Shown here one piece after another: positions 31,931 through 45,743 of a stretch of 64,000 nucleotides of DNA. Source of the DNA: Erythrobacter litoralis. Lineage in GTDB: Bacteria > Pseudomonadota > Alphaproteobacteria > Sphingomonadales > Sphingomonadaceae. The translations under genes and the position numbers were made by a program. The stretch lies in NCBI RefSeq assembly GCF_001719165.1, contig NZ_CP017057.1, positions 1,798,001 through 1,862,000 on the forward strand. Direction: 5' to 3'. Each line of letters starts with the position of its first letter. The stretch's first letter is position 1. The notes under the pieces were generated by a model. It saw only the letters and a program-made list of their open reading frames with translations, did no database searches and had not been told where the DNA came from.

Positions 31931-32105
31931 AATTGCTTGGCGGGACTGCCCGGCACGAGCCGATCGAATATCCCTGAGGCTATAAGCAATCCAAGGGAGC
32001 TGTCCCTGCCTGGGTTCACGGGTTCGTCCCGGGGTCCCGGGTAAACGGCGCCCACCTGACGTTGAGGCGTCAGAGGATTTCCCGGCAACGACCCATGGTG
32101 GTTCC
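31931..32105 (+). ncRNA. ssrS: 6S RNA (ssrS); boundaries approximate
   Basis: The gap between zapA and 5-FCL is the standard place of 6S RNA. The sequence holds CCCTGAGGCTATAAGCAATC near 31972 (compare CCCTGAGCCGATATTT in the E. coli RNA) and the stretch AAACGGCGCCCACCTGACG near 32043. Complementary GC-rich blocks at both ends could form the long interrupted helix. A T-rich stretch (GTTGTTTTCT, 32111-32120) follows. 6S RNA mimics an open promoter and holds RNA polymerase in stationary phase. Ends were set by analogy, not by folding. Confidence 0.72.
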
Positions 32106-32120
32106 GTCACGTTGTTTTCT

Positions 32121-41243: not shown

Positions 41244-44006
<2,763 letters not shown>

Positions 44007-44029
44007 GGATCGAAACCTGCGTTTGGCAT

Positions 44030-44113
44030 CGGTCCCATGGCGCGGGACCGGAGAATATCGGGGAAGGGTTCGCGCCATCTACGGACGCGCGGGTGCCTGC
44101 CGCGCGGGCAGGC
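44030..44113 (-). promoter_or_regulatory. Two hairpins in the leader between the small secreted-protein gene and secA
   Basis: Hairpin near secA: CGGTCCC/GGGACCG at 44030-44050, 7-bp stem and 7-nt loop, ending 23 bases before the secA start. Distal hairpin: GCCTGCC/GGCAGGC at 44095-44113, 7-bp stem and 5-nt loop. The secA ribosome-binding sequence GCAGG could pair instead with the CCTGC of the distal hairpin, giving mutually exclusive folds. Confidence 0.5.
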
Positions 44114-44131
44114 GTAACTGTGGCCGGAAGC

Positions 44132-44437
44132 CTATTCGAGCGCGCGCTCGACCCCCATCAGGACCGGCATGCGCAGCACGCGCGGGCGCGGCACGGGCGA
44201 GGTCCGCCGGGTCTCACGGCAGCGCCGTGCGGCCTTGTCGGGCGCATCGAGGCGCTTCGCCGGAAGATGGGCGCGGCTTTCTGCCGCCTCGGCGGAAGCG
44301 CCGATATTGCAGGCCGCAAGCGGGCCGGCCGACGACGCATGCGCCGTGCCGCTGAGCGCGGCAAGGCCCGAAAGCAGGGCCAGGAGGGCGAGAATATGAC
44401 GCGTCATCGCCCGCGCAAATAGGCACTTTTGCCGCAT
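44132..44437 (-). CDS. Small secreted protein upstream of secA; candidate SecM-like secretion monitor
   Basis: 101 residues from ATG 44437, which has GAGG seven bases upstream; ATG 44407 is the alternative. A 14-residue polar N-region (MRQKCLFARAMTRH) leads into a strong signal sequence ILALLALLSGLAALSGTAHA. The short mature part has two cysteines and an Arg/Pro-rich end containing PVPRPRVLRMPVLMGVERAL. It reads in the secA direction, 125 bp before it. E. coli SecM is likewise a small secreted protein with a long signal sequence, encoded directly before secA, whose C-terminal arrest peptide tunes secA translation. No E. coli-type arrest sequence is seen, so the role is inferred from position and shape. 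Confidence 0.7.
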   Translation of the reverse strand: MRQKCLFARAMTRHILALLALLSGLAALSGTAHASSAGPLAACNIGASAEAAESRAHLPAKRLDAPDKAARRCRETRRTSPVPRPRVLRMPVLMGVERALE

Positions 44438-44516
44438 ACGTCCACCTCGCAAGCTCAATCGCAGCGCAATATTGCGCCGTTTACTCGCGTGCTGGCGGGG
44501 GTTAAGCGCGCCTCTC

Positions 44517-45743
44517 ATGGACCTCGATTCCTCGCCCCTCGCCCTTCCCTTCCCCGACATGCCCGCGATTTCCGGGGTGCGTCTGCGCGCCGTACAAGCG
44601 CGATACAAGGACTGGGACCGGGCCGATCTCACCTTTGCCGAATTCGCCCCGGGAACCAGCCTCGCGGGTGTCTTCACGAAAAGCGCCTGCGCCTCGAGCG
44701 AGGTGGAACTCGGCCGGACGCAGGTCAAGGCGGGCGCGGCACGGGCGTTGATCGTCAATGCAGGCAATTCCAATGCCTTCACCGGATATCGAGGGCGCGA
44801 GGCGGTCGAGGCGATCCAGTCCCAGGTCGCAGAGGCGCTGGGCTGCACGCCATCGCAGGTGCTTGTCTCATCCACCGGTGTGATCGGCGTGCCGCTGCCC
44901 AAGGAGAAGGCGCGTGCCGGGATCGAAGCGGCGCTGGAGGCGAAGGAATGCGGTTGGGAGGACGCGGCGCAGGCGATCTCCACCACCGACACTTTTCTCA
45001 AGGGTGCACATGCAAGTGCTATGCTCGGCGAAACCCGTGTCGATCTATGCGGCATCGTCAAGGGGTCGGGGATGATCGCGCCCGACATGGCGACCATGCT
45101 CGGCTATGTCTTCACTGATGCGGACGTTGCGCCCGGTTTCCTGCAGGAGGCGCTGGAACGCGCCAATGCCGAGACGTTTTCCTGCATCACCGTCGACGGC
45201 GACACCTCGACCAGCGACACGGTCCTGGTCTTCGCAACGGGCAAGGCCGGCAACCGCCGGATCGAGGACTGGAACAGCCCCGGCGCAGATGCCTTCGCCG
45301 CGGCACTGGCAGATGTCTGCCGCCGCCTCGCCCATCTCGTCGTGCGGGACGGGGAAGGCGCGTCGAAATTCATCACCGTGCGCGTGGCGGGCGCTGCCAG
45401 CAACGAAAGCGCGCGCCGCATCGGGCTCGCCATCGCCAATTCGCCGCTGGTCAAGACCGCGATCGCAGGCGAGGACGCGAACTGGGGCCGGGTGGTGATG
45501 GCGGTCGGCAAGGCGGGCGAACCGGCGGACCGCGACCGGCTCTCGATCGCGTTCGGTGGCATCTGGACCGCGCGCGAGGGCAATCCGGCCGAGGATTACG
45601 ACGAGGCCCCGGTGGCCGAACATCTCAAGGGACGCGACATCGATCTCGCCGTCGACCTCGGCATCGGCGAAGGCCGCGCCACGGTTTGGACCTGCGACCT
45701 CACCCACGGCTACATCTCGATCAATGCGGATTACCGTTCATGA
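44517..45743 (+). CDS. argJ: Bifunctional glutamate N-acetyltransferase/ornithine acetyltransferase
   Basis: 408 residues from ATG 44517. ArgJ moves the acetyl group from N-acetylornithine to glutamate in the cyclic arginine pathway, and some members also use acetyl-CoA. The self-cleavage site that makes alpha and beta chains is in KGSGMIAPDMATMLGYVFTD, with Thr193 the expected nucleophile. VNAGNSNAFTG, SSTGVIG and the end THGYISINADYRS are typical. Its stop overlaps the next gene start (ATGA). It is divergent from the small gene before secA, separated by 79 bp. Confidence 0.95.
   Translation: MDLDSSPLALPFPDMPAISGVRLRAVQARYKDWDRADLTFAEFAPGTSLAGVFTKSACASSEVELGRTQVKAGAARALIVNAGNSNAFTGYRGREAVEAIQSQVAEALGCTPSQVLVSSTGVIGVPLPKEKARAGIEAALEAKECGWEDAAQAISTTDTFLKGAHASAMLGETRVDLCGIVKGSGMIAPDMATMLGYVFTDADVAPGFLQEALERANAETFSCITVDGDTSTSDTVLVFATGKAGNRRIEDWNSPGADAFAAALADVCRRLAHLVVRDGEGASKFITVRVAGAASNESARRIGLAIANSPLVKTAIAGEDANWGRVVMAVGKAGEPADRDRLSIAFGGIWTAREGNPAEDYDEAPVAEHLKGRDIDLAVDLGIGEGRATVWTCDLTHGYISINADYRS

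Follow-up and report, generated by a model that had tools for sequence, protein, structure and literature searches.

A signal-bearing reading frame with a conserved C-terminus and UAG stop before secA in Erythrobacter and its relatives, a candidate secretion monitor

Described arrest peptides and the secA locus of Erythrobacter litoralis

In Escherichia coli and its relatives, SecM, a signal-bearing small protein with a conserved C-terminal end, is encoded just before secA. Further upstream open reading frames (uORFs) are grouped in the main text of PMC10987492 as uA_LPPP, uA_NSP-stop (Sphingobacteriaceae of the Bacteroidota) and RQH; according to the same text, uA_NSP-stop and others arrest at the stop codon. 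Arrest peptides of the RQH or RAPP type, among them the alphaproteobacterial ApdP, are encoded by uORFs of sec genes, carry a signal and have a conserved R-A pair in their C-terminal part (passages of PMC10987492 and PMC7897499). Passages of PMC13183943 describe termination arrest for CliM of C. difficile, which precedes yidC. In three of the peptides reported to arrest at the stop, as in the uORF studied here, conservation extends as far as the stop codon. Those of PMC8429421 place the arrest of TnaC at its stop codon, affecting Rho downstream, and those of PMC7815308 describe inhibition of RF1-mediated release by SpeFL.

The secA uORF of Erythrobacter litoralis resembles SecM in its signal, in its place just before secA and in its conserved end, and the RQH type in the features given above. 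It lies in the window, i.e., the whole 64,000-nucleotide stretch of DNA analysed here, which is part of a single-contig genome of 3,251,353 bases (Table 1). The four features by which the main text of PMC10987492 recognizes Sec-monitoring substrates were all found: a uORF of secA without known function, a signal, a conserved C-terminus and a spacer above 30 residues, the distance from the AxA motif to the stop being 59–71 residues (median 67, 112 sequences).

The uORF was compared with the described motifs over 121 unique members selected by a [DE]R[AP] ending, a set whose filters dropped the true members L002, L037, L141 and L130. The SecM pattern FxxxxWIxxxxGIRAGP, LPPP within the last 15 residues and a terminal NSP each occur in 0 of 121, and a RAPP-like motif (RAPP, RAGP, RGPP, HAPP or QAPP) is found in the last 25 residues of one member, not at its end. 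Unlike SecM, the uORF protein ends with its motif followed by UAG, measures about 91 residues, is probably translated from a leaderless mRNA and precedes a secA start for which a Shine–Dalgarno (SD) hairpin is unsupported. ApdP differs in preceding secDF2 (passages of PMC7897499 and PMC10951233); uA_NSP-stop and CliM have other residues and belong to other groups, and none of them ends in DRAxE-UAG. TnaC, with 24 residues and a UGA stop, and SpeFL are metabolite sensors, whereas export would be the signal for the secA uORF. The terms "sphingomona" and "erythrobacter" do not occur in the main text of PMC10987492, whose supplement may still list such loci. Among the papers listed by a literature search, no title or start of an abstract described this uORF family, and SecM, secA and Sphingomonadales combined gave 0 papers.

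Both Pfam and NCBIfam were searched, and the uORF protein matched neither. The Rfam scan of the whole window gave no match at the uORF–secA leader; relaxing the E limit to 5 yielded a single match, which falls below its gathering score. Elsewhere in the window, a 6S RNA lies at 31940–32108 (+) (RF00013, 53.3 bits, above the gathering score of 46.4).

Table 1. Features of the uORF–secA region (window positions)
Feature	Position	Strand	Basis or remark
uORF as conserved	44132..44407	-	91 codons, ATG 44407 to TAG 44132-44134, MTRHILAL...GVERALE*
N-terminal extension of the first reading	44408..44437	-	overlaps predicted promoter
-35 box TGGACG, predicted uORF-secA promoter	44439..44444	-	conservation
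-10 box TATTTG, predicted	44416..44421	-	starts 14 bp before ATG 44407
Sec-type signal peptide MTRHILALLALLSGLAALSGTAHA	44336..44407	-	predicted from hydropathy and motif only
Variable middle (spacer)	44168..44335	-	column entropy
Conserved C-terminal motif PVLMGVERALE and stop TAG	44132..44167	-	alignment
Stop-codon-spanning hairpin region (H1)	44118..44152	-	folding, base covariation; atypical version in the window
125-nt leader gap, uORF stop to secA	44007..44131	-	of the C-rich kind found in relatives
Hairpin H2 (GCCTGCC / GGCAGGC)	44095..44113	-	sequence and fold of the window's leader
Hairpin H3 (CGGTCCC / GGGACCG)	44030..44050	-	sequence and fold of the window's leader
SD-like GCAGG of secA	44016..44020	-	sequence
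secA	41244..44006	-	ATG 44006; residues 1-150 find a match in 118 of 119 family genomes

Part of what the first-pass annotation had read from the window was recovered. The 101-codon frame (44437 to 44132, stop TAG) is on the strand of secA, whose ATG begins 125 bp past its end; the strong signal sequence corresponds to a hydrophobic stretch with AHA at residues 32–34 of the 101-residue reading; the quoted C-terminal sequence is there; the two hairpins with 7-bp stems in the gap both appear in the computed fold, and GCAGG precedes the secA ATG. The proposed start, ribosome-binding site and output are not supported, as described below.

Occurrence before secA and the C-terminal end

A single-sequence search found the uORF protein in 34 of 61 genomes: it is present in 34 of 37 congeneric genomes, the window's own among them, and in 0 of the 24 genomes from the order's other families. 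One of the three genus misses (G006) does carry the gene, ending IDRAYE-TAG; the other two are genomes 74% and 89% complete. All 30 fetched loci directly precede secA, and a profile built on them placed the gene in 163 of 397 family genomes and 44 of 96 genera, as well as in 396 proteins of a large collection (7993 candidates scored; 120 of the proteins listed). The gene-bearing records include Erythrobacter, Porphyrobacter, Altererythrobacter and Tsuneonella (46 loci, with some metagenome-assembled genomes classified only to order or class).

The 121-member set is selected by its ending and incomplete; therefore, what we say on stop codon, linkage and motif rests on a sample anchored on secA. 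In that sample, SecA was matched in 118 of the 119 family genomes searched, and the upstream region was examined at 117 loci (G129, with secA split over contigs, was left out), the uORFs being filtered by signal-sequence hydropathy alone and regardless of their C-terminus. A signal-bearing uORF stands before secA in 69 of the 117. No such uORF passed the filter at the other 48, a number that is an upper bound, as the filter overlooked two leader-like frames (G081 ending SEKRQE, G087 ending HERRRE); it also let through a few unlikely frames, the TTG-start ORFs of G077, G085 and G143. Among 15 genomes from the order's other families, secA was matched in 13 and 11 loci were read (L147, L163, L165, L167–L169, L171–L175), 0 of which have a [DE]R[AP]-type ending. 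Because of these 48 loci and 11 loci, the uORF is to be regarded as dispensable, a point that counts against reading it as a secretion monitor.

Fifty-five of the 69 signal-bearing uORFs end in [D/E]-R-[A/P]-x-x, with Glu last in 52; they are 86–97 residues long, stand 81–141 bases from secA and stop with TAG (51) or TAA (4), never TGA. By comparison, 171 long genes from the window and twelve 20-kb stretches use TGA 108, TAG 38 and TAA 25 times, and the ending [DE]R[AP]xE occurs in 0 of 317 background ORFs. The linkage of the uORF to secA, its C-terminus and its stop codon exceed chance. The family core can be written P-x(0,1)-V-x-x-G-x-[DE]-R-A-x-E-UAG, whose strict form fits 81 of the 121 members; the same set has 114 TAG and 7 TAA stops, and on the secA tree the stop changed between TAG and TAA 7 times vs 20 C/not-C changes at the wobble base of the Ala codon. 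A nucleotide element, GANCGCGCNNNCGAATAG, occurs at 41 places in 40 of 99 genomes, once in the window's genome; 30 of the 41 are at the secA uORF (coordinates compared by eye), and a reversed control pattern gave 6 matches.

Among the 14 remaining uORFs, several look decayed or divergent (DRLLQ, DERRIE, GERRRE, ADRLRV, DLALE) and a few are unlikely ORFs. Signal-bearing or leader-like uORFs with divergent ends are seen before secA at G061, G154, G140, G149, G169, G114, G167, G081 and G087, the ends being DRLLQ, DERRIE, ADRLRV, GERRRE, APRRE, HDLSRE, SEKRQE and HERRRE. They are possibly decayed or re-evolved versions of the motif.

Start codon, promoter-like sequence and the hairpin over the stop

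The Met that is invariant in 30 aligned sequences is residue 11 of the 101-residue reading, 30 bp downstream of ATG 44437, which leaves 91 codons, and the relatives' lengths agree with this start (91 in 48 and 90 in 40 of 119). Upstream of the conserved ATG, 98 of 119 relatives have TGGAC at -50..-28, where shuffles give a mean of 2.5, and 0 have it at -80..-52; TA[TC] is present at -19..-8 in 108 of 119, the -10 box starting 13–15 bases before the ATG in 100 of these 108. The boxes are 17 bases apart in 87 of 101 scored cases, the general form being TGGACG-17-TATNNN and that of the window TGGACG-17-TATTTG. A scan with the sigma-70 consensus returned no promoter at the uORF upstream region; conservation leads us to predict a promoter-like sequence here, placed as for a leaderless mRNA. 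With the boxes so located, ATG 44437 sits in the promoter spacer, and the GAGGTGG that the first-pass annotation took for a good ribosome-binding site overlaps the -35 box. The long N-region that it had described therefore falls away. Conserved boxes next to the ATG, together with weak SD-like sites (mean energy -1.2 kcal/mol for the uORF vs -3.9 for secA), suggest that the mRNA begins at or next to the uORF ATG, i.e., that the uORF is probably leaderless. A divergent ORF (44472–45743, +, 423 residues), a putative argJ, shares the upstream region with the predicted promoter.

Selection acts unevenly along the frame. Within the Erythrobacter clade, dN/dS is 0.24 in the signal, 0.47 in the middle, 0.29 at -15..-6 and 0.25 at -5..-1 (0.22, 0.73, 0.46 and 0.21 in other genera), and mean column entropy in the clade falls from 2.2 bits in the middle to 0.8 and then 0.5 in the two C-terminal segments. 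The conservation asked for by the first-pass annotation is thus present, both as linkage to secA within the family and as a C-terminus more conserved than the middle. P-11, V-10, G-7 and R-13 are each spread over four codons in the clade, and this synonymous drift argues for selection at the level of the peptide. The last codons behave differently: Arg -4 is CGC in 117 of 121 vs 44% in background, Tyr at -2 is TAC in 51 and TAT in 0 of the 121 members, and Glu at -1 is GAA in 104 and GAG in 11. With this bias at -4, -2 and -1, RNA structure may account for some of the motif and of the TAG. These comparisons indicate that signal and C-terminus are conserved as amino acids and that the last codons carry an additional constraint on nucleotides.

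In many relatives, the R-A codons are able to pair with the G of UAG plus the bases after the stop. The register of this predicted hairpin follows the wobble position of the Ala codon, a C there being accompanied by G after the stop in 47 of 55 and any other base by C in 47 of 59. The association (47/8/12/47, Fisher 1e-12, n = 114; 2e-10 within the clade, 0.025 outside) leaves out 7 sequences with A after the stop and is inflated by relatedness. When the covariation was counted as independent pairs on the secA tree it was not significant (median p 0.375; of 9 pairs on supported branches, 3.8 went the same way, 1.1 the other way and 4.1 showed no difference, on average). Compared with shuffles of itself, the segment -15..+15 folds more stably (mean z -2.63 in 58 Erythrobacter-clade sequences, -1.08 in 63 others), with a control region at -45..-15 giving +0.40 and -0.32, and real 3′ arms reach -15.5 vs -14.1 kcal/mol for randomly dealt ones (sd 0.24); these numbers, too, are inflated by relatedness. 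Fewer than two flanking pairs are found in 20 of 121 members, where TAG is slightly rarer (17/20 vs 97/101 of the rest). The window itself is an exception, since its GCG followed by G breaks the rule and its fold is atypical.

We considered a DNA operator in place of RNA structure and set it aside: the arm spacing differs by one base from one wobble class to the other, which we infer to be unlike a dimer site. A switch between the stop hairpin and H2 was likewise set aside: judged by eye, the H2 arms vary (e.g., L025, L054) while the stop hairpin is constant, and we therefore claim no conserved mutual pairing. The lineage L136–L138, with ADRPLE or VDRPLT endings and other Arg codons, offers a natural separation of constraint on the peptide from constraint on the RNA: its D-R pair is retained with CGG or AGG, and the hairpin is absent.

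How the uORF may act on secA

We hypothesize that the uORF monitors secretion through a nascent chain that arrests its ribosome at UAG or directly beside it, a reading we favor with moderate confidence on comparative grounds. Within the ribosome, the C-terminal residues would slow or halt translation while UAG or the last codon occupies the A-site. Active export would pull the chain by its signal peptide and so end the arrest; upon export failure, the ribosome would stay parked where the uORF ends, and expression of secA would rise. The fact that conservation extends to the final residue and to the stop codon itself speaks for a stop-proximal stall. An alternative register, R-A-x with Glu in the A-site, would match that of RAGP and is speculation. 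We retain from the first-pass annotation a SecM-like monitor with an unrelated arrest sequence, as far as the linkage to secA and an arrest-like conserved C-terminus go; its start, its ribosome-binding site and its SD switch are unsupported.

That switch was the output by which SecM is understood, an arrested ribosome opening a hairpin that hides the secA SD, and for this family we find it very improbable. The window does offer material for it, as GCAGG can pair with the CCTGC of H2 and the SD is mostly paired by prediction (0.12 unpaired), with early secA and the gap as its chief partners. The window's leader, however, folds no better than shuffles (z +0.41), and placing a ribosome at the uORF stop left the predicted SD exposure of 121 leaders unchanged (mean 0.40 vs 0.42); shifts above 0.1 numbered 8 up and 3 down, compared with 17 up and 12 down for an upstream control block. 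Of the predicted SD pairing, more than half involves gap bases beyond the ribosome's footprint, and the uORF accounts for roughly a quarter to a third. Around the secA start, predicted structure falls short of that of shuffles (mean z +0.52 and +0.45), H2 (-0.58 and -0.24) and H3 (-0.64 and -0.37) are weakly supported over the family, and the RNAalifold consensus of 40 of the 58 clade leaders is nearly empty (5 pairs, -0.74 kcal/mol, no pair changed on both sides). With an open secA start region and an unchanged predicted exposure, the SecM output logic is thus unsupported. A different output may suit the gap better. It is C-rich and G-poor (C–G skew 0.20 vs 0.009 in 35 co-directional gaps), but 48 secA leaders without a uORF are skewed as well, at 0.096 vs 0.18 in those with a motif uORF (p 1.4e-5, without tree correction). 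By preventing the stop-codon hairpin from closing and by occupying the first part of this C-rich leader, a parked ribosome would fit attenuation of the TnaC kind, through Rho, better than unmasking of the secA SD, a preference we hold tentatively. Spelled out in full, a leaderless sphingomonad monitor would arrest RF1 termination at a nearly invariant UAG via a new motif, [DE]-R-A-x-E-stop, and the parked ribosome, holding open the hairpin into which the stop codon is built, would block premature Rho-type termination before secA; this complete scheme is tentative and, taken whole, unlikely. To describe it as SecM's sensor joined to TnaC's output is a similarly doubtful proposition.

It is conceivable, at about the low likelihood of that scheme, that the 3′ end is conserved chiefly as RNA, in the form of a transcription-pause, processing or attenuation hairpin, with the peptide carried along and no arrest. 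The folding excess over shuffles that the control region lacks, the covariation of wobble and stop+3 bases and the codon bias at R, x and E are what such an element would leave. Yet the covariation loses significance on the tree, the window breaks the pairing rule, and several observations are of a peptide: synonymous drift affects P, V, G and R, which are conserved and lie upstream of the hairpin; members that have lost the hairpin retain D-R and, for the most part, TAG; and reading frame, signal peptide and length are conserved. A peptide could also be conserved for a reason outside the ribosome, as an ordinary exported envelope peptide whose C-terminus is a binding or protease tag and whose linkage to secA is plain co-transcription. 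An AxA signal in 112 of 119 relatives (by motif count) and the conserved C-terminus would both suit that explanation, which we hold to be improbable given the variable mature middle, the lack of a Pfam or NCBIfam family, the constraint on stop identity and codons, and the position before secA.

If the secretion-monitor reading is true, a large family of alphaproteobacteria would have evolved feedback on secA by nascent-chain arrest, using a new motif that probably acts at termination. Blocking of release factor 1 by a peptide could then be approached from a new side, and the uORF would be a case of joint selection on the identity of the stop codon, the peptide and the RNA structure. For Erythrobacter and its relatives, the uORF is a candidate secretion sensor that is both concrete and testable.
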